52,747 nucleotides of DNA from a virus. Where the stretch lies: positions 1-52,747 of the IMG/VR virus record IMGVR_UViG_3300025892_001683; one strand, written 5' to 3'. Position 1 is the first letter of the stretch; each line of letters opens with the position of its first letter. The notes beneath the pieces are model-generated. The model was given only the letters and a program-made list of their open reading frames with translations, did no database searches and was not told the DNA's origin. Made by a program: the position numbers and the translations under genes. Below are positions 1,266 to 52,583 of the stretch, piece by piece.

Positions 1266-1990
1266 TAGTCTGTCTGGCTTATATCAACGTCAAAGTCATC
1301 ACCGGATATTGTCAGGTCAACGATGTTATCATTGATACCGCTTTGAGTTATATCAATTTTACCGCCTCCACCTGTTACACCAAGTGTGATTCCCATTCCT
1401 TGACTATCACCATTACCACTTTGCGTTGTTGTTATAGCAACACCTTCATCACTGTTATCACTGTTTATAGATGTTGATGCACTGTTGTCAACTGTTACAG
1501 TTAACGCTGCGCTCTGTCCGTCTACATCAGTATTAACGATGTTATTATCACCAGTTACAGTAAACGAAATAGTTGAACTATCAGCACTGGCACTTTCACC
1601 AATGTCAAAGTCGTATGTGTTATCGTCTCCGGTAGTAGTAATATTAAGTGTCACAGTATCACAGTTTCCTGTAGCAGAACTGGAACATAGCAGATCCACG
1701 GTATTTGAGTCACCCGTAAACTGCCAGGTGCCAGTATAAGTGTCACCCTTAATTATTGCAGCAATAGTGTTAGAACTACCTGTTTGCGTAATTGCAAAGT
1801 TCATAGTATCGCCTGCTAGTGTAACGTCAGTACTTGATGTACCGATTACGTTGTTTGCTCCGTCTTGTGTGATGTCTAAGTCCAACCCGTCGCCTGATTG
1901 TGTAATGTAAATGTCATTAGCAAACGAAGGTGTTAAGAATAGCAACATCGCAACAAGAAGGATATTTGATATTGAAAATGATTTATTCAT
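1265..1990 (-). CDS. Curlin-like secreted amyloid repeat protein (candidate CsgA/CsgB-type substrate)
   Basis: This is a 241-residue exported protein with a signal peptide (cleavage near PSFA24). The mature part consists almost entirely of degenerate repeats of the type ITQSGDGLDLDITQDGANN, ITQTGSSNTI and ITQSGINDNIVDLTI. That matches the curlin pattern of alternating beta strands with Gln/Asn and Gly turns seen in CsgA and CsgB. It is very acidic, with many Asp and Ser residues. The start codon overlaps the end of csgG by 8 bp and has a strong Shine-Dalgarno (AAGGAGCG). Co-location with CsgG and CsgF homologues strongly suggests it is the secreted substrate. Whether it forms fibres, or works in lysis, adhesion or biofilm formation, cannot be told from sequence. 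Confidence 0.75.
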   Translation of the reverse strand: MNKSFSISNILLVAMLLFLTPSFANDIYITQSGDGLDLDITQDGANNVIGTSSTDVTLAGDTMNFAITQTGSSNTIAAIIKGDTYTGTWQFTGDSNTVDLLCSSSATGNCDTVTLNITTTGDDNTYDFDIGESASADSSTISFTVTGDNNIVNTDVDGQSAALTVTVDNSASTSINSDNSDEGVAITTTQSGNGDSQGMGITLGVTGGGGKIDITQSGINDNIVDLTISGDDFDVDISQTD

Positions 1991-2843
1991 TATTCGCTCC
2001 TTCTTCCTTTATGGTTTTGTTATTATGGTCCTGCGGATGAGTTTGTATAAGTGTCGCCTTGCCTTTAAACTTCCACAGTTCTTTTACCTCTCCCTGGTGT
2101 ATTAACTCAACTACGGCTGCTTCGATTGCAGTTCTCACAGCATAATTGACAGGTTCATTCACAGCACTTCCGCTTTCTATCTCTAAAGCCTTAGTGCCAA
2201 GATCCAGGAACCTAAATACGTCTGCTCCAGACCTGTGACTAGCGATTCGCTTTTCGGTCGCTGTAGTAAGCAAAACTTCTCCTGTCTGCACACTTACGAT
2301 TCGCATTGCCACTGTTACTTGGTCTATACGGTATTGCATGTTAGCACCAATACCGAAATAACGAGCACCTATGCCCCCACTTTCGATATTGCTTTCATAA
2401 CCAACTACACCACCTTCTATCATTAGACCAGCAAACAATAATGGTTTTAATTTAATTGCCTCTTTGCCTTCATATACTTCCCTTGTACTTTTAATAAGTT
2501 GCCTTTCCTTGACGAGGTTATCAAGACCAATCCTCTCTACGACAGTGAACCAAGTGCTGTCGCCTACTTCCTTTAGTGCCTGTACTACCCATACTTCTGA
2601 GCCTTGTGTAATCGCAGAACTTAACTGCGAAAAATTTTGATTTGGTTTACGTTGCCCTGTCTTGTCCATAAAATTGTAAACTGCTATAGTAATCTTTGGA
2701 CCGTCTAACTTAGGAACTGTATCAAGAACGCTTTGAATTGGAGACCGTGAAACTTCTGGTGGTGTCCATTTCGCTTGATTCATAGATGTGGCGCACCCCG
2801 AGAGTACAATCGCCATTACTATCGCCATCACAGTCTTAAGCAC
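1983..2843 (-). CDS. csgG: CsgG-like curli secretion channel lipoprotein
   Basis: The 286-residue lipoprotein precursor has a lipobox LSGC with the lipidated Cys at 17. The body closely follows CsgG: VYNFMDKTGQRKP (55-67), VERIGLDNLVKERQ (102-115) and GGIGARYFGIGANMQYRIDQ (156-175). CsgG forms the nonameric outer-membrane pore that exports curli subunits. Asn and Phe at 70-71 match the Asn-Phe pair of the E. coli constriction loop, while the neighbouring Tyr of that loop is not obvious. It lies between csgF (9 bp upstream) and the curlin-like gene, which it overlaps by 8 bp. The assignment is firm. A phage origin is inferred from the surrounding genes. Confidence 0.92.
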   Translation of the reverse strand: MLKTVMAIVMAIVLSGCATSMNQAKWTPPEVSRSPIQSVLDTVPKLDGPKITIAVYNFMDKTGQRKPNQNFSQLSSAITQGSEVWVVQALKEVGDSTWFTVVERIGLDNLVKERQLIKSTREVYEGKEAIKLKPLLFAGLMIEGGVVGYESNIESGGIGARYFGIGANMQYRIDQVTVAMRIVSVQTGEVLLTTATEKRIASHRSGADVFRFLDLGTKALEIESGSAVNEPVNYAVRTAIEAAVVELIHQGEVKELWKFKGKATLIQTHPQDHNNKTIKEEGANNE

Positions 2844-4424: not shown

Positions 4425-4432
4425 TATTTATG
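4425..4432 (-). promoter_or_regulatory. Putative T4-type late promoter inside the end of the bilin reductase gene
   Basis: The minus strand reads CATAAATA followed by CTTGTGTT and then the ATG of the 336-aa gene. The short distance suggests a very short leader. Confidence 0.45.
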
Positions 4433-5123
4433 TCAGTTTAGGAAAGAGCATGTCAGTGCAAAACTTGTCTACGTCCGCTTCATCTAAGCCTAAAGACTTC
4501 ATTGTGCGTGGTGTATGTGGGTTCTGTTGCTGATTGTGGCAGTAGTAGTTCTGCGCTTCTGCTGTTTTTTCAGGATCAGCAGTTCCTGTAAATTCGCCTA
4601 TTTCTGCAAAGTATGCACGTAGATTATCAAGTGCAAGTTGAATGATAACAGTTGCTTCTTCTTCTCTTACATTACTTGCTGCAATCATGCTTGGAGTAAA
4701 GATGTTTGTTGCCCACTCTGGTAATGCACGCCTCTTCTCTGGTACAAAGTCTTGTACTGCTTCCATATAGCCGTTAATCATAGGATGGTTAACACCGCCA
4801 CTACTACGACTGAAGTCATGGAATGCACCTGTCATTTTCTTCTTACCTGATATAACATCAAACCCATATATAGGTCCATCATTGCTTAATACAGGAAATA
4901 CACAAACATGCATCATCCACAGGCCTTTTGTTTCACGTGCATCAACTACATCAATATGAGCTCTACGAACATGTTCGTTTTGCCATACTCTATTGATCCA
5001 TAGTTCGTTGTTAAAGTGTGCTAGTCCTGGTTCATCATATTCTGTGCCGTTAGCATCAAAGATATTAAGAATCTCTTGTTTGCACTCAATGAGTTTATCC
5101 CATATTATACTACTTTGGGACAT
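4428..5123 (-). CDS. pcyX: Ferredoxin-dependent bilin reductase, PcyX/PcyA type
   Basis: The 231-residue protein has the ferredoxin-dependent bilin reductase pattern: LWMMHVCVFPVLSNDGPIYG (68-87), then FDVISGKKKMTGAFHDFS. His72 and Asp89 fall where PcyA has its biliverdin-contacting His and Asp. Cyanobacterial PcyA makes phycocyanobilin. The PcyX group, described from marine viral metagenomes beside heme oxygenase, makes phycoerythrobilin from biliverdin using reduced ferredoxin. This gene overlaps heme oxygenase by 14 bp, so product and substrate enzymes are translationally coupled. PcyX rather than PcyA is inferred from the short length and the non-cyanobacterial phage context. Reaction specificity needs an assay. 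Confidence 0.85.
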   Translation of the reverse strand: MSQSSIIWDKLIECKQEILNIFDANGTEYDEPGLAHFNNELWINRVWQNEHVRRAHIDVVDARETKGLWMMHVCVFPVLSNDGPIYGFDVISGKKKMTGAFHDFSRSSGGVNHPMINGYMEAVQDFVPEKRRALPEWATNIFTPSMIAASNVREEEATVIIQLALDNLRAYFAEIGEFTGTADPEKTAEAQNYYCHNQQQNPHTPRTMKSLGLDEADVDKFCTDMLFPKLT

Positions 5124-5658
5124 ATTGCATCATGTCTTTGAATAGTTCAGTTGCATAATCAAAACATATTTTTGCTTCGTCTGCCATACTGTCATTTGTT
5201 TTTGCTCTAATAGACTCTTTAGTTTCTTTTATATCACCTTCAAAGTCATAAAACGTTCCTTTACCTGGAATACGTTTTTTAATCATTTGTCCACCACTTA
5301 GGTCTCCCATATGTCTTACATATACATGTGCCATAAGTTTATCAGCATCGTTCATAATTGTTTTCATATGAGCAAGATATTTTTTAGTTGCCATTGTGTG
5401 TTCTGGTGGTTTCTCATCTTGTGGCCAAAGTTCTCTAAAATCTGCTAGTATTGATTTAGATCTCATTATGTGTGGAAAGTCATCTAATAGACCTTGCGCT
5501 CTTGCCATAACTTCTAAAACTTCATAACACGGAAATTGATTCCAAAGATATGTTGCATACAGTTTAGGATCAATTGATCCGCCCATTAAGTGTTTTACAA
5601 ATTGTTGTCTTTCTGCGTTCTTATGGTGTTCCCATGTTAATTCTTTAAGGTTGTTCAT
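5110..5658 (-). CDS. ho1: Heme oxygenase (heme to biliverdin IX-alpha)
   Basis: The 182-residue protein opens with LKELTWEHHKNAE, where His11 or His12 is the proximal heme ligand. The distal-helix motif GDLSGGQ lies at 118-124. These are diagnostic of the HO-1/HmuO/PigA-like fold. The enzyme cleaves heme to biliverdin, CO and iron, drawing electrons from ferredoxin in bacteria. It is shorter than cyanobacterial HO1 (about 240 residues), as in other compact bacterial and phage versions. Its stop overlaps the bilin reductase start and its ATG overlaps the clpS stop, so clpS-ho1-pcyX read as one cistron group. The iron released could also help an iron-limited host, which is inference. Confidence 0.92.
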   Translation of the reverse strand: MNNLKELTWEHHKNAERQQFVKHLMGGSIDPKLYATYLWNQFPCYEVLEVMARAQGLLDDFPHIMRSKSILADFRELWPQDEKPPEHTMATKKYLAHMKTIMNDADKLMAHVYVRHMGDLSGGQMIKKRIPGKGTFYDFEGDIKETKESIRAKTNDSMADEAKICFDYATELFKDMMQYVPK

Positions 5659-15318: not shown

Positions 15319-15347
15319 ATTATATGACAGTTTAGAATTAAAGTCAA
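15319..15347 (-). promoter_or_regulatory. Sigma70-type early promoter (acidic protein)
   Basis: The minus strand has TTGACT (15342-15347), 17 bp, TATAAT (15319-15324). It overlaps the end of the Rieske-related gene. Confidence 0.75.
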
Positions 15348-16417
15348 GAAGAAATTAACGTTTGCTGGTACGGATCAACATCCAAATACTTGCCCCATTC
15401 TGTATAGTAATGGCGCATGCCTACTTCATCGTGTATGGTTCCGTTCTCATGTCTACCATGCAATATGTTACGTGCTTCTGTGCCTTCACGCATTGTAGTT
15501 CCTTGTCCTGCTACACCAATTAGGTCTTCATGTAGGTTACGCCCGAACGGTCCCCATATGCTGTTGTGATGATTGATACGTGTGCGTCTTTCTTCTGGTG
15601 TGTCTTTGCGTAGTCCATAACCTCTAAACTCTATAAGCACTTTGTTAGGACCTAATGGAGTAACACTGTCGCTTCTATACGCACTGCCACGCAAGTTAAA
15701 ATTAAAGCCTGGGAACAAGTCTACCATATACCATTGGTTGGGCGGCAGATTAGGAAAGGACAGTTCGCCTCTATCTTCAAAGCCTTCATACTCTTCGTAG
15801 TTGACAGTGAATGAACTTACATTTACATGTCCGTTGTCAAAAGGTATATTCTTACGTGCAAAGTATTCATCATTGAATCCGCTTACACGATTGAAGTAGT
15901 GCATGAAGTCGTGATAGAATTCACTGTTAGTATCGTGCCAAAGTTTGTAGTTTGTATCTATAACTGCTTTGTGATAATGAAACACTTCCATTTCTTCTGT
16001 GTCAATAGCATCTGCTATACAATCAAATGCCCCTGCTGTCCACTCTTCAACACTCTGTGTAGGATTAGGATCAAGTGTTACCCATACCATACCTCCGTGC
16101 TTTACTTCACAGTGTAGTTTAGGTTCACTTGTTACGACAGGTGCTTTAAATGTACCGCTTGGCTGACTAATTCCATAGTTTCGCCATGCATGAACACGTT
16201 TGCCAGTATTGTATGCAAGTACGTTTACACCTGCTATCTGTGAAGTTCTAAAGTCTCCTTGATTATACATTTCACTAATGTGACATATAGGCACCCATAC
16301 CTTTGAAAAGATATGTTCTTGTTCTTGTGCAAATATTTCTGGACTATTGTAGGCTGTGCTACTGATTGATTCTACGTTTGGTTGTGCTAACCAATTCTTA
16401 TGATTACGTGGTGGCAT
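15344..16417 (-). CDS. Rieske-type oxygenase homologue lacking the Rieske cluster ligands
   Basis: The 357-residue protein follows the alpha subunit of Rieske non-heme iron oxygenases. The N-terminal part has IFSKVWVPICHISEM and GVNVLAYNTGKRVHAWRN (63-80). The catalytic domain has NYKLWHDTNSEFYHDFMH with His169 and His173, and a late segment WGPFGRNLHEDLIGV whose Asp298 could complete the iron site. However, the usual Cys-x-His and Cys-x2-His loop that should follow HAWRN is missing: residues 81-107 run straight to LHCEVKHGG. A bound [2Fe-2S] cluster therefore looks impossible. Either it accepts electrons another way or it does different chemistry. It starts after an AAGGAG site and is separated from nfu by 74 bp. 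Substrate unknown. Confidence 0.7.
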   Translation of the reverse strand: MPPRNHKNWLAQPNVESISSTAYNSPEIFAQEQEHIFSKVWVPICHISEMYNQGDFRTSQIAGVNVLAYNTGKRVHAWRNYGISQPSGTFKAPVVTSEPKLHCEVKHGGMVWVTLDPNPTQSVEEWTAGAFDCIADAIDTEEMEVFHYHKAVIDTNYKLWHDTNSEFYHDFMHYFNRVSGFNDEYFARKNIPFDNGHVNVSSFTVNYEEYEGFEDRGELSFPNLPPNQWYMVDLFPGFNFNLRGSAYRSDSVTPLGPNKVLIEFRGYGLRKDTPEERRTRINHHNSIWGPFGRNLHEDLIGVAGQGTTMREGTEARNILHGRHENGTIHDEVGMRHYYTEWGKYLDVDPYQQTLISS

Positions 16418-16491: not shown

Positions 16492-16773
16492 TTAATAGTA
16501 AGGATTGTTAAAGTTTGGATCGTCCATTCCGTCAACTGCTGTTACTTCTGGAATGTAATGTTTAAGCATATTCTCGACACCCAATTTAAGAGTAACTGTA
16601 CTACTTGCACAGCCGGAACATGATCCTTGTAGTAAAACACTTACACGGCCTGTTTTCTGATCAAAGTCTTCAAACTTAATAAAACCTCCGTGTTGTTCTA
16701 CAGCAGGTTGTACCTGCTCGTCGATAATTTTATTAATTCTAATAACTGTATCGTTGTATTCTTCTTTATTCAT
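16492..16773 (-). CDS. nfuA: Nfu/NifU C-terminal-type Fe-S cluster carrier
   Basis: The 93-residue protein has the NifU C-terminal domain: VQPAVEQHGGFIKFEDFD, then GSCSGCASSTVTLKLGVENML with Cys52 and Cys55 forming the CxxC that holds a bridging [4Fe-4S] or [2Fe-2S] cluster. Length matches stand-alone Nfu domains; the NfuA A-type domain is absent. It sits between the AlkB-like gene and the Rieske-related gene. The phage also encodes IscU. A role supplying clusters to ferredoxin or to phage or host metalloenzymes is inferred. A late-promoter-like GATAAATA precedes it. Confidence 0.88.
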   Translation of the reverse strand: MNKEEYNDTVIRINKIIDEQVQPAVEQHGGFIKFEDFDQKTGRVSVLLQGSCSGCASSTVTLKLGVENMLKHYIPEVTAVDGMDDPNFNNPYY

Positions 16774-16857: not shown

Positions 16858-17922
16858 TTAAGCGAACTGTTTTGCTATTTCTCTTTCTGCTTCAGTAGCC
16901 ATCTCCTTATCCCATTTGTCCAAATGCTTTTTCATAAAGCGATTGAACACAGGAGGAATTAATGCTAATGCAAAAAGTGTGAAGTAACCTACACCTGTGT
17001 TAGGTGCGCCTACTTCGTCAAGTTCCCAGAAGTGTGTTTCACCTCTGTCATGATGATCAGCCTGGCGACCAATCTCTATGAAGAACCAACTTGTGAATAA
17101 TGTAGAATTATCCCATGAGTGTCTATAGTCTATTGGTTCGCTCTTAACACGAATCAAACCATAGTGTTCAAGATAGTTAAGTGCTTCAAGTTCGAAGTTT
17201 GATATTAACCAAACAAGTCCGATACATGCGACACCTAACCAACCACCTGCAAAGAAAAACAATGCAAGTGTAGGTACACTCATCATGTAACCTCTTATCC
17301 ATCTGTTACTTACGGATAAGAAAGGTTTACCTAAACGTTTCAATCTACCACGTTCCATTTCAAACAAGAACTTACTTTGTCCTAAGTGTGATTTAGCATA
17401 GTGTGAATAGATATCACGTCCTCTAGGTGCAGTTGCAGGATCATCTTCACTTGCTAATTCCAAGTGATGATTGTACACATGAGCATAACAGAAATGTGCT
17501 GAACCACTTAGTCCCATCATCCAACGACTTATTACAAATGCAATGCCTTTGGTGTGCGATAGTTCATGCCCATAGATTATACCTATGCCTGCAAATATAC
17601 CTGTTGATAGTGTAGCACCTAATAGTTCTGCACCTGCCATACCATTAAATATTTGGTAAGCAAGAGCTAACTGTAATGCTACAAAGACTGGCAACATCAA
17701 ATACATAACCATATTCTGTAACCAGGGGATACCTAAGGTCTCTCCATTCTCATCAACTGCTCCACGAGTGTGTTTAGTGATAAGTGTGTCAAGTATAATG
17801 CCTACTCCCAATAAGCCTACACCTGTCCATGCCCATGCTCCACCTGCCAACACTCCTGCGAGTGTTACAAGTATTAACAATGGTGCTATGAAGTACCTTA
17901 TGTTTACGAAAAGTTTATTCAT
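16858..17922 (-). CDS. AlkB-like membrane diiron alkane/fatty-acyl hydroxylase
   Basis: The 354-residue integral membrane protein has the histidine clusters of AlkB: GHELSHTKG (118-126), HVYNHHLELASEDDPATAPRG (148-168), NYLEHYGLIR (249-258) and QADHHDRGETH (287-297). AlkB and related enzymes use a His-ligated diiron centre and rubredoxin to hydroxylate terminal methyl groups. In the fourth motif the usual RHSDHH is RQADHH, so one commonly conserved His is Gln, and substrate or activity may differ. The start at 17922 has GGGAG before it; the frame is open 28 codons further. A fatty acid desaturase role is the alternative. A phage copy beside Fe-S and oxygenase genes is unusual. Confidence 0.82.
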   Translation of the reverse strand: MNKLFVNIRYFIAPLLILVTLAGVLAGGAWAWTGVGLLGVGIILDTLITKHTRGAVDENGETLGIPWLQNMVMYLMLPVFVALQLALAYQIFNGMAGAELLGATLSTGIFAGIGIIYGHELSHTKGIAFVISRWMMGLSGSAHFCYAHVYNHHLELASEDDPATAPRGRDIYSHYAKSHLGQSKFLFEMERGRLKRLGKPFLSVSNRWIRGYMMSVPTLALFFFAGGWLGVACIGLVWLISNFELEALNYLEHYGLIRVKSEPIDYRHSWDNSTLFTSWFFIEIGRQADHHDRGETHFWELDEVGAPNTGVGYFTLFALALIPPVFNRFMKKHLDKWDKEMATEAEREIAKQFA

Positions 17923-17996
17923 TGTGTTTCTCCCGGCTTTCGCCTGTAGTTTATCACAATGTTCGTAATAGAACCTTTCTATTACTTTACTATAAT

Positions 17997-18025
17997 ACTG
18001 TAACACAATAAGTGAACAGTGTCAA
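17997..18025 (-). promoter_or_regulatory. Sigma70-type early promoter (AlkB-like gene)
   Basis: The minus strand has TTGACA (18020-18025), 17 bp, TACAGT (17997-18002). The leader would be about 70 nt to the ATG at 17922. Confidence 0.65.
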
Positions 18026-18101: not shown

Positions 18102-19070
18102 TTATATAAAGTAATTTCTTACAGTTTTTACAAATAAGGACACATTCTTAGGAGGTGTTTCTTTTAAAATACCATGACCTAAACCACATACCCATCCTGT
18201 AGGATCTTCGATAGTTTTGAGCCATTTTTGGATTTCTTTTTCTAATGTTTCACTATCTTGTAAAAGTAATGTTTCGTCAAAGTTTCCTTGTACAAATCCT
18301 GTATCAACTTTCTTAAGAGTTTTGTTTAGGTCAACTGTACTATCTACACCTATACCTGCAAAATTTAAATCAATTACTTTGTTTAAACTATTATAAGGAA
18401 GTGTTCTAGAATAATATGCTGTATTGCCGACATCTGCAAGTTGTTTCAAAAGAACAACACTATATTCTTTGTCAAAATAACTCTTATTAATATTTGAAAG
18501 ACCGCTATCAAATATCATTACACAATCAGCACCTGCTTCAATTTGTTTTTTAATACTTTCTTTAAGTAATGGTACAATTACATTCTTCAAATAGTTGTGT
18601 TTGAAGTCATCGCTTACTTCTTCATCACCTATCGCATAATTTAAAATAGTCCAAGGTCCACCTACAAATCCAACTAATCCTTTTTTGTGAGATAACCTAT
18701 CTCTAGTTTGTTTAAGTGCTTTTGATTGAAAATTCAAAAACTTTAATGCTTTTCCTATGTCTTTATGATCTACCCAATTGTCTTCGTCTAGGTTCCATTC
18801 GAACTTTGGCCCTGGATTAAACTTCAACGGTAACCCTAGCCCTTCTAGATGAAACAGTATATCACTAAAAAGTATTGCTACATCAAAATCAAATTCATCA
18901 ATAGGTAGCATTGCTACATCTGATGCAAGTCTTGGAAGTTTGCACATTTGTTCAAATGACCAATCTTGTTTCATTGCCATGTATGATGATTGGTATCTAC
19001 CTGCTTGCCTCATCATCCATATTGGAGGACACTGATTTTCTCTCCGTAGTAGAGCATTCTCAAATTTCAA
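18102..19070 (-). CDS. hemE: Uroporphyrinogen decarboxylase
   Basis: The 322-residue enzyme has the signature PPIWMMRQAGRYQ (15-27), whose Arg residues bind substrate carboxylates. It also has LFSDILFHLEGLG with the essential Asp, GFVGGPWTILNYAIG, and a C-terminal GWVCGLGHGILKETPPKNV. HemE removes four acetate carboxyls from uroporphyrinogen III to give coproporphyrinogen III. It is slightly shorter than bacterial HemE (about 340-355). The start is TTG at 19068-19070, nine bases after AAGGA; an ATG is absent in this position. It lies 23 bp downstream of the peroxiredoxin gene and is probably co-transcribed from 19703-19731. It forms a set with the phage HemA and HemC. Confidence 0.93.
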   Translation of the reverse strand: MKFENALLRRENQCPPIWMMRQAGRYQSSYMAMKQDWSFEQMCKLPRLASDVAMLPIDEFDFDVAILFSDILFHLEGLGLPLKFNPGPKFEWNLDEDNWVDHKDIGKALKFLNFQSKALKQTRDRLSHKKGLVGFVGGPWTILNYAIGDEEVSDDFKHNYLKNVIVPLLKESIKKQIEAGADCVMIFDSGLSNINKSYFDKEYSVVLLKQLADVGNTAYYSRTLPYNSLNKVIDLNFAGIGVDSTVDLNKTLKKVDTGFVQGNFDETLLLQDSETLEKEIQKWLKTIEDPTGWVCGLGHGILKETPPKNVSLFVKTVRNYFI

Positions 19071-19702: not shown

Positions 19703-19731
19703 ATTATATTTTATCTATAATAATATGTCAA
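19703..19731 (-). promoter_or_regulatory. Sigma70-type early promoter (peroxiredoxin-hemE)
   Basis: The minus strand has TTGACA (19726-19731), 17 bp, TATAAT (19703-19708): perfect consensus. It begins directly after the tmRNA coding piece. Confidence 0.88.
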
Positions 19732-19740
19732 GCACTTATT

Positions 19741-20022
19741 CTTGAAAGTGCAACTTTTCTGTTGCCAGGTAAGTTGCCAACCCCGTCACCTAGTTAAACT
19801 AGGCAGCAAGAGCAAAGTTTTCGTTTGCGTCTATCGTTTTGTTCGCGATAACGGTGCTTACATCCCGGTAATCTCGTTCACCTTTAACAAGCCAGTCGAT
19901 CCTAGTTCGCCCCCATCATAAGCACATTAAATTGTCTGTGTTAATCTTCAATGTGCTTATGGTGGAGGCGTCGGGTACTGCCCCCGAGTCCTGTTCTTGT
20001 GACATATGATGCTGTCATCAAT
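19741..20022 (-). ncRNA. ssrA: Circularly permuted two-piece tmRNA
   Basis: On the minus strand the order is acceptor piece, spacer, coding piece: the alphaproteobacterial permuted arrangement. The acceptor piece ends in an encoded CCA at 19960, with a T-arm CGGG-GGCAGTA-CCCG. Its CGCCTCC (19964-19970) pairs over 7 bp with GGGGGCG (19908-19914) at the 5' end of the coding piece, including the G3-U70 pair needed for alanyl-tRNA synthetase, with A73. The coding piece continues GAACTAGGATCGACTGGC, like canonical tmRNA, and carries a tag reading ANENFALAA then TAG (19799-19828), after ATAGAC. The spacer forms an 11-bp hairpin for processing. The outer ends are estimates. tmRNA with SmpB rescues stalled ribosomes and tags products for ClpXP. 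A dedicated promoter lies upstream. Confidence 0.93.
19918..19960 (-). repeat. 11-bp inverted repeat in the tmRNA spacer
   Basis: AATGTGCTTAT (19950-19960) and its exact complement (19918-19928) can form an 11-bp stem with a 21-nt loop. It sits between the acceptor CCA and the 5' end of the coding piece, so it is the segment expected to be cut out when the two-piece tmRNA matures. Confidence 0.8.
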
Positions 20023-20031
20023 TACACTATA

Positions 20032-20060
20032 TTTATAACACCTTTTTAAAGGTTTGTCAA
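20032..20060 (-). promoter_or_regulatory. Sigma70-type promoter of the tmRNA
   Basis: The minus strand has TTGACA (20055-20060), 17 bp, TATAAA (20032-20037), within 15 bp of the tRNA 3' end. The same region also reads TATAAATA, a perfect T4 late octamer, so late transcription is possible too. Confidence 0.75.
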
Positions 20061-42652: not shown

Positions 42653-43033
42653 ATGGCTTACTCGGATAAGGTACTTGATCACTACGAAAACCCCCGCAAT
42701 GTTGGAAGTTTAGATGCTAAGGCAGTTAATGTTGGTACAGGCATGGTTGGAGCACCTGCATGTGGCGATGTTATGAAACTTCAAATTGAAGTAGAGGATG
42801 ATGTTATAACAGATGCCAAATTTAAAACATATGGCTGTGGCAGCGCAATAGCAAGTTCAAGTTTAGTAACACAGATGGTCAAAGGTATGACACTAGATCA
42901 AGCCTCTGATGTTAAGAACATGGACATTGTAGAAGAACTTGCTCTACCACCTGTGAAGATACATTGTAGTGTTCTTGCAGAAGATGCAATTAAATCAGCA
43001 ATAGCAAATTATAAATCTAAACACAAAGAATAG
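42653..43033 (+). CDS. iscU: IscU Fe-S cluster scaffold
   Basis: The 126-residue protein is a complete IscU: MAYSDKVLDHYENPRNVG, the three cluster Cys at 37 (GAPACGD with Asp39), 62 (TYGCGSAIASS) and 105 (IHCSVLAEDA), and the HscA-recognition motif LPPVK (98-102). It assembles [2Fe-2S] clusters from IscS sulfur and iron. IscS, HscA and HscB are not in this window, so host partners are assumed. With Nfu it gives the phage a scaffold and a carrier. Expression from a perfect late promoter is unusual for metabolism. Confidence 0.95.
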   Translation: MAYSDKVLDHYENPRNVGSLDAKAVNVGTGMVGAPACGDVMKLQIEVEDDVITDAKFKTYGCGSAIASSSLVTQMVKGMTLDQASDVKNMDIVEELALPPVKIHCSVLAEDAIKSAIANYKSKHKE

Positions 43034-51644: not shown

Positions 51645-51840
51645 CAATGGACCAGTATTTGAAAAAGGTTATCCTAGTTACGAAGCAGTCAACCCAGTTC
51701 AAAGAACTTATGAAGTTACATACCCATCAGGTCAAACAGTACAATGGAAGAACTATACCATAACAGACTGTCTTATAAAATTTAATGGACATAACAGTAT
51801 GTATGATTATCAACTTAAAATTAAAGAGCTCAACAAATGA
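51637..51840 (+). CDS. 67-residue unassigned protein
   Basis: The protein (MNNNGPVFEKGYPSYEAVNPVQRTYEVTYPSGQTVQWKNYTITDCL) is probably a small beta fold. ATG 51637 overlaps the previous stop by 8 bp; three in-frame ATG codons upstream are possible. Its TGA overlaps the hemC ATG (ATGA), coupling the two. Confidence 0.5.
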   Translation: MNNNGPVFEKGYPSYEAVNPVQRTYEVTYPSGQTVQWKNYTITDCLIKFNGHNSMYDYQLKIKELNK

Positions 51841-52583
51841 TTTTAAGAATTGGTGTTAGGGGAAGTAAACTAGCATTAGCATATGCAGAACGTGTGTGCA
51901 ATGAGCTTTCTTGTGATACTAAAATAGAAATCATTAAAACAGACGGAGACTTGTTTCCTGATACTCCAATACACGAGATAGGTGGCAAGGGTGTGTTCTG
52001 CAATGCTATTGAATATGCACTTGCACAAGATATTATTGATGTTGCTGTTCATAGTTTAAAAGATATGCCCGGAGATGTAGAACATCCAGACTTACATATA
52101 TGTGCAGTGTTAGAACGTAATAGACCGCATGATGTTCTTATAGGTAATGTGTTTGATGGCTTTACATTAGGTACTAGCAGTCCTAGGCGTAAAGCACAAC
52201 TAGAAGAACTATATGCTAATCAAAATATACAGATTAAACCTATTAGAGGTAATATAGATACTAGACTTACTAAACTAGATTCAGGAGAATATGATGCTAT
52301 TGTACTTGCAGAAGCAGGACTAGATGCATTACAAATTAAAAGAGATTACATTAGGTTACCTATTGTCCCAGCAGTTGGGCAAGGTATTATTGCATTACAA
52401 ACACGCAAAGATGATGTAACGACAAACGAAATTGTTAGCAAAACAAATCATAAACTTACATATGAACAGGCAAAATTAGAAAGAGCATTGTTAAAAGGCA
52501 TAGGTGGAGATTGTTCTACAAAAGTTGCAGGTCATGCAACAGGTAGCAATCCTATTAAATTAGAGGCTGTGTATTATGATTGA
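51837..52583 (+). CDS. hemC: Hydroxymethylbilane synthase (porphobilinogen deaminase), short C-terminus
   Basis: The 248-residue enzyme has RIGVRGSKLALAYA (Ser10, Lys11), VHSLKDMPGDV (Lys75, Asp76), LGTSSPRRKAQLE (Arg117, Arg118), PIRGNIDTRL and GIGGDCSTKVAGHA with Cys226, which carries the dipyrromethane cofactor. It joins four porphobilinogens to hydroxymethylbilane. It ends only 22 residues after the Cys; most HemC (about 310 residues) have about 70 there, so domain 3 is shortened. That may be tolerated or reflect a phage variant. It is last in the plus-strand early block, coupled to a 67-aa ORF. Confidence 0.92.
   Translation: MILRIGVRGSKLALAYAERVCNELSCDTKIEIIKTDGDLFPDTPIHEIGGKGVFCNAIEYALAQDIIDVAVHSLKDMPGDVEHPDLHICAVLERNRPHDVLIGNVFDGFTLGTSSPRRKAQLEELYANQNIQIKPIRGNIDTRLTKLDSGEYDAIVLAEAGLDALQIKRDYIRLPIVPAVGQGIIALQTRKDDVTTNEIVSKTNHKLTYEQAKLERALLKGIGGDCSTKVAGHATGSNPIKLEAVYYD

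Follow-up and report, generated by a model that had tools for sequence, protein, structure and literature searches.

The alpha subunits of ordinary Rieske oxygenases contain two metal centres each, a Rieske cluster and a mononuclear iron. Electrons travel about 12 Å between adjacent subunits, from the cluster in one to the iron in the next (PMC12445004). Since this inter-subunit transfer is the rule in the family, placement of the cluster and the iron on separate polypeptides is chemically natural. In the caffeine N7-demethylase NdmC/NdmD/NdmE, the Rieske domain has moved onto the reductase polypeptide (PMC4408171). The alpha subunit of methanesulfonate monooxygenase, MsmA, carries its four Rieske ligands as CxH-X26-CxxH, with a 26-residue spacer that is specific to this enzyme (PMC4433239). 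Gene product gp61 of the cultured phage HMO-2011, annotated as methanesulfonate monooxygenase, and many of its relatives from GOS and virome data were reported in 2015 to lack the CXH-Xn-CXXH motif, and the absence of the motif from one host paralogue was also stated, without explanation (PMC4433239). The phage gene, its MsmA label, the absence of the motif and, in principle, the location of a Rieske domain on a reductase are already known. In the literature searched, from which the 2013 HMO-2011 paper fell outside, we found neither an iron-dead Rieske-reductase partner nor reciprocal decay of two paralogues, nor the idea that phages carry one half of the enzyme.

Here we report the analysis of a gene of this type, termed Cat, in a 52,747-nucleotide stretch of viral DNA (the window; IMG/VR record IMGVR_UViG_3300025892_001683), together with its relatives in phages and bacteria. 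We propose, with a probability of roughly 0.77, that Cat forms the catalytic half of a methanesulfonate monooxygenase (MSAMO) split over two proteins, and that it is reduced in a mixed complex by RY, a second MsmA paralogue encoded by SAR116 bacteria. The phage MsmA is cited as a sulfur-cycle auxiliary gene, although the electron route as drawn could not work. A complementary pair offers a concrete and testable answer, in which the virus would supply half of an oxygenase to a host subunit unable to work alone.

An MsmA-type catalytic subunit without Rieske ligands

The Cat gene (P0001) occupies positions 15344..16417 on the minus strand, begins with ATG and encodes 357 aa, and 11 stops are met when the plus strand is read over the same interval. 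Pfam recognizes the catalytic domain alone (Ring_hydroxyl_A, PF00848, residues 141-345, E=2e-7) and detects no Rieske domain in the protein, yet residues 17-80 still match the N-terminal part of Rieske oxygenases. Based on alignment, domain identities and dN/dS, a remnant Rieske domain with deleted cluster loops spans residues 20-118 (16064..16360, minus strand) and is followed by the near-invariant PF00848 catalytic domain at residues 119-345 (15383..16063, minus strand). The deletion was placed by a three-way alignment of Cat, an intact MsmA (L181) and RY (L288) at residues ~80-100 (NYGISQPSGTFKAPVVTSEPK; 16118..16180, minus strand), where CxH-X26-CxxH has been removed. The distance from W41 to the GG motif is 66 residues in Cat versus 114 in intact MsmA, which corresponds to a deletion of 48 residues.

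We sorted the homologues into 61 intact MsmA, 14 distinct RY and 153 distinct Rieske-less sequences; two MsmA proteins, one with a masked motif (L231) and one truncated at a contig end (L236), were left out of the Cat class. In the alignment with the 61 intact MsmA, all of which have both the Rieske and the iron sites, not one of the 153 Rieske-less sequences keeps a Rieske ligand. The iron site is fully retained. Its first part is the EFYHDFMH segment at residues 166-173 (15899..15922, minus strand), with Glu166 and the iron ligands His169 and His173, and the third candidate ligand is Asp298 (15524..15526, minus strand); these four residues are invariant in 153/153 Cat and in 61/61 intact MsmA. 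The sequence-only reading, which described a Rieske oxygenase homologue that had lost its cluster and kept its iron site, is thus borne out, and it had correctly placed HAWRN (76-80), LHCEVKHGG (101-109) and the three iron ligands, though it gave no strand for the gene. Two features were absent from it, the H-x3-H spacing of the iron-site histidines and the invariant inter-subunit bridging carboxylate Glu166.

That reading had also named a frameshift in the assembly as a possible hiding place of the ligands. Two scans each found relatives of Cat encoded in at least 599 stretches of viral contigs, which rules out a frameshift or assembly error. The Cat-type gene is common and conserved in ocean viruses. 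Six-frame translation of the window yielded CxH-Xn-CxxH strings only on the plus strand, outside the Cat frame, and no cluster or Rieske ferredoxin was found elsewhere in the window, whose small ORFs were scanned in part.

Structure prediction, which had been suggested as a check, gave a complete two-domain alpha subunit. The AlphaFold model of Cat (pLDDT 84.9, pTM 0.87) was built with 70 sequences including intact MsmA, and an earlier model from 14 close sequences (pLDDT 45) was discarded. Structurally, it is closest to salicylate 5-hydroxylase (7c8z; Z 32.7 and rmsd 2.4 across 309 residues). The matches at Z ~28-33 are mostly alpha-beta enzymes of the alpha3beta3 type; dicamba monooxygenase and other alpha3 enzymes score Z ~17, and CntA, also alpha3, ~31. 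Cat has both the full-length alpha-subunit fold and the 2-His-1-carboxylate site of PF00848. In a profile alignment with solved Rieske oxygenases, His169 coincides with the first conserved histidine of the metal motif and Glu166 with an acidic residue, so that the invariant Glu166 takes the place of the bridging acidic residue of these enzymes.

When bacterial genomes were scanned with the alignment of phage Cat, two classes of homologue emerged. Proteins of the first class, found in Hyphomicrobiales and other Alpha- and Gammaproteobacteria, are ~415 aa long and 50-59% identical and contain C-P-H-X26-C-x-x-H, whereas those of the second class, from SAR116 bacteria, are ~362 aa long, ~80% identical and devoid of the motif. 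Between the window Cat and intact MsmA, identity is 78% in the catalytic domain versus 42% in the remnant domain. The sequences indicate that Cat derives from MsmA, from which its H-x3-H iron motif is inherited. Cat resembles MsmA in this spacing, in the bridging Glu, in having bacterial relatives with the exact 26-residue spacer and in the methanesulfonate-type operon surroundings of its SAR116 form; unlike MsmA, it has all four Rieske ligands deleted and would need a cluster from a partner subunit. Cat lacks the motif CxH-X26-CxxH, which RY and the intact bacterial relatives retain. Judging by the operon neighbours and the catalytic-domain identity, the substrate of Cat is probably methanesulfonate, which would be converted to formaldehyde and sulfite.

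The SAR116 paralogue RY and its linkage to Cat

RY is a protein of 796-857 aa in which a Rieske domain is followed by a decayed catalytic domain and, at the C-terminus, an FAD ferredoxin reductase of the putidaredoxin-reductase/BphA4/TodA type. All four Rieske ligands (CxH-X26-CxxH) are kept and the iron site is absent in 14/14 distinct sequences. The least decayed copy, from a single-contig genome of 2,753,527 bp (G029), reads FKLNHDRTIKFHQDFMK where Cat reads YKLWHDTNSEFYHDFMH, and in the alignment the segment that holds Asp298 is deleted from it. In another copy (L178, 2911-5481, plus strand), the dead catalytic domain is interrupted by a long insertion. The fusion is not universal, since one genome (G010, L290) encodes the Rieske part and the reductase in separate ORFs.

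In SAR116, the Rieske-less catalytic subunit is genetically linked to the Rieske-reductase fusion. The operon order is RY, a beta subunit of the SnoaL/ring-hydroxylating type, an MsmC-like Rieske ferredoxin of 133 aa, a 281-aa protein without a Pfam match, and Cat in the same direction as RY. Among the operon proteins searched, none was named as containing a GST domain. Genes named from sequence by eye include, upstream, one for an MsmE-like periplasmic binding protein and, downstream, those for a sulfite-exporter-like membrane protein and for formate-THF ligase-like and FolD-like proteins; these surroundings would fit the breakdown of methanesulfonate to sulfite and a one-carbon unit. The G029 cluster also contains dmsABC-type genes, in agreement with the report that msmA adjoins dmsABC in SAR116 groups HGC2-C, which includes IMCC1322, and HGC2-D (PMC8547437). 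One genome (G005; L289 and contig C16) encodes two RY and two Cat, one pair per contig, with RY and Cat ~11-13 kb apart.

Across 61 genomes of the SAR116 family, Cat occurs in 12, RY occurs in the same 12, and the other 49 have neither; the matches in these 49 are stand-alone reductases without the oxygenase part of RY. One of the 12 RY genes is cut by contig ends and one is encoded as two ORFs. The chance of such co-occurrence would be ~6e-13 if genomes were independent, a figure that overstates the evidence, as the 12 genomes are related and do not represent separate events; several of them are also incomplete. None of the 12 genomes showed an intact MsmA; MED-G04 (G018) has an intact MsmA without the RY fusion. 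In a sparse sampling of 385 alphaproteobacterial genomes, the only ones with RY were established members of the SAR116 family. A phage-encoded RY was considered and rejected, as the two matches in viral contigs cover the reductase part alone and no RY oxygenase part was found there.

The two proteins are constrained in opposite domains. Over 91 pairs of genomes that encode both proteins, the median identity of RY is 85.7% in the Rieske domain versus 41.5% in the catalytic domain, while that of SAR116 Cat is 79.4% in the remnant versus 93.2% in the catalytic domain, and the direction of the bias holds in 91/91 pairs for each protein. Phage Cat follows the latter pattern (54.5% versus 92.3%), and intact MsmA is even (75.5% Rieske versus 74.3% catalytic). 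The Nei-Gojobori dN/dS ratios, compared between regions of similar dS, are 0.035 (Rieske) and 0.196 (catalytic) in RY, 0.044 (remnant) and 0.013 (catalytic) in SAR116 Cat, each of these from 7-8 usable pairs, 0.22 and 0.045 in phage Cat, and 0.133 and 0.146 in intact MsmA. The opposite conservation and dN/dS of the domains imply that each protein is selected for the function lost by the other, in phages as well.

A proposed electron route and its rivals

We propose that SAR116 has divided two jobs between MsmA paralogues, with RY providing the cluster and the reductase, and Cat the iron. Electrons would pass from NAD(P)H to the FAD domain of RY and, with or without the small Rieske ferredoxin of the operon, to the Rieske cluster of RY, and from there through Glu166/His169 to the iron of Cat, where methanesulfonate would be cleaved to formaldehyde and sulfite. 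Cat, RY and the SnoaL-like beta subunit would assemble in a mixed ring. During infection, phage Cat would supplement or take over from the catalytic subunit, with host RY as its source of electrons. The invariance of Glu166 in a protein without a cluster points to electron delivery across a subunit interface. The proposed system resembles NdmC/NdmD/NdmE in its Rieske-less catalytic subunit and in the Rieske domain located on a reductase polypeptide. In NdmD, however, the reductase fused to the Rieske domain is of the FMN type and the GST-like protein NdmE is needed, whereas in RY a BphA4-type FAD reductase is attached to an entire alpha subunit whose catalytic domain has decayed, and Cat, unlike NdmC, is also carried by phages, which have the catalytic half only.

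Points against the split model include the symmetry of a C3 ring, in which even alternation of two subunit types is impossible, and the small Rieske ferredoxin of the operon, which might feed Cat directly. In the latter case, RY would serve mainly as the reductase of that ferredoxin, as its BphA4/TodA-type C-terminus and the position of the 133-aa ferredoxin gene between RY and Cat would allow. We regard this as unlikely: it leaves unexplained the strong constraint on the alpha-type Rieske domain of RY, with its dN/dS of 0.035 and ligands kept in 14/14 sequences, and many intact MsmA systems also have a ferredoxin beside a cluster-bearing subunit.

Peroxide shunts are known for Rieske oxygenases, and Cat could act as a stand-alone non-heme iron enzyme that uses H2O2 or another oxidant and has no Rieske partner; the phage indeed lacks a partner gene, and the window has a peroxiredoxin gene and hence a means of handling peroxide. 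The exact co-occurrence with RY, the reciprocal decay and the kept Glu166 point instead to electron delivery across an interface and make this very improbable. A slighter chance still is given to Cat having no oxygenase role in the phage and serving instead as a decoy to poison the host enzyme, or as a virion protein. The gene of HMO-2011 does sit among late genes, near virion structural, lysozyme and terminase genes, and the remnant domain is variable, but all iron-site residues are kept in a near-invariant catalytic domain (dN/dS 0.045), an intact active site is not required of a decoy, and the same protein is encoded in a methanesulfonate-type operon on SAR116 chromosomes. Host RY is the best candidate donor for phage Cat. 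Of the options raised from the window alone, reduction by another donor is supported, while another oxidant or a wholly different chemistry is not needed.

The split model would tie Cat to SAR116-type hosts and would allow host range to be predicted from gene content and vice versa. With cluster and iron naturally kept on separate proteins, the pair would also lend itself to studies of electron transfer between Rieske oxygenase subunits. Counts of MsmA genes in ocean surveys lump whole enzymes together with two types of half-enzyme.

Phages carrying Cat and the origin of the gene

Among 165 phage loci with Cat, 69 are HMO-2011-like and 44 resemble the T4-like virus of the window, so unrelated phage types have come to share the gene. 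The 50,697 phage records searched contain a single genuine cultured-phage match, HMO-2011, a podovirus type that infects a SAR116 strain; its gp61 is 73% identical to the window Cat. The earlier reading knew of no described phage enzyme of this type; this protein is one, and its motif loss is published (PMC4433239). Gp61 and the Rieske-less paralogue of SAR116 (IMCC1322-type) are 71-82% identical to the window Cat and have the same deletion. Matches to 'Acinetobacter phage MD-2021a' were rejected because they are bacterial contigs with an ordinary antABC cluster; these records (L083, CAKLQF020000010.1), as bacterial chromosome contigs, give false phage matches for antA, hemE and alkB.

The Rieske-less proteins group together in a catalytic-domain tree as a single clade (100/99), and SAR116 Cat branches within the phage diversity. 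An AU test rejected the phages as one clade (p-AU 0.037) and did not reject SAR116 as one clade (p 0.106). With tree support this modest, descent of the host gene from viruses is a tentative hypothesis, possible but rather doubtful: MsmA might have lost its loop in a phage that relied on host electrons and then passed to SAR116, after which the host's own MsmA would have lost its iron site, leaving a catalytic half of viral ancestry.

The window is a fragment of a T4-like myovirus. Its own host may be a SAR116 bacterium, but the NrdA of the phage is nearest to those of Pelagibacter phages and cyanophages. A permuted tmRNA of the alphaproteobacterial type lies at 19708-20056 on the minus strand (Rfam RF01849, E 6e-42; tag ANENFALAA), adjoining tRNA-Ile(tat) and tRNA-Met(cat), and gives weak evidence about the host. 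The same tmRNA type occurs in a phage of a Methylophilales host. The tag was dropped as a host marker, as it differs from the two readable SAR116 tags and Methylophilales phages carry related SsrA.

Next to Cat, an Fe-S carrier with a NifU/NfuA C-terminal domain (Pfam) is encoded at 16492..16773 (minus strand), and this gene neighbours Cat in 13/165 phage loci. A NifU N-terminal-type scaffold gene lies separately at 42653-43033 (plus strand), so parts of the Fe-S assembly pathway are present in the window phage. The membrane fatty-acid-desaturase/AlkB-like oxygenase gene at 16858-18006 (minus strand) has no relative in genuine phage records and recurs in one other Cat-phage locus. Tetrapyrrole genes are found at 4428-5658 and 18102-19070 (both minus strand) and at 51837-52583 (plus strand); the set comprises a ferredoxin-dependent bilin reductase, a heme oxygenase, a HemE-like uroporphyrinogen decarboxylase with a TTG start and a HemC-like porphobilinogen deaminase. 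A CsgG-family gene (curli secretion pore; PF03783, E 1e-53) is located at 1983-2843 (minus strand).
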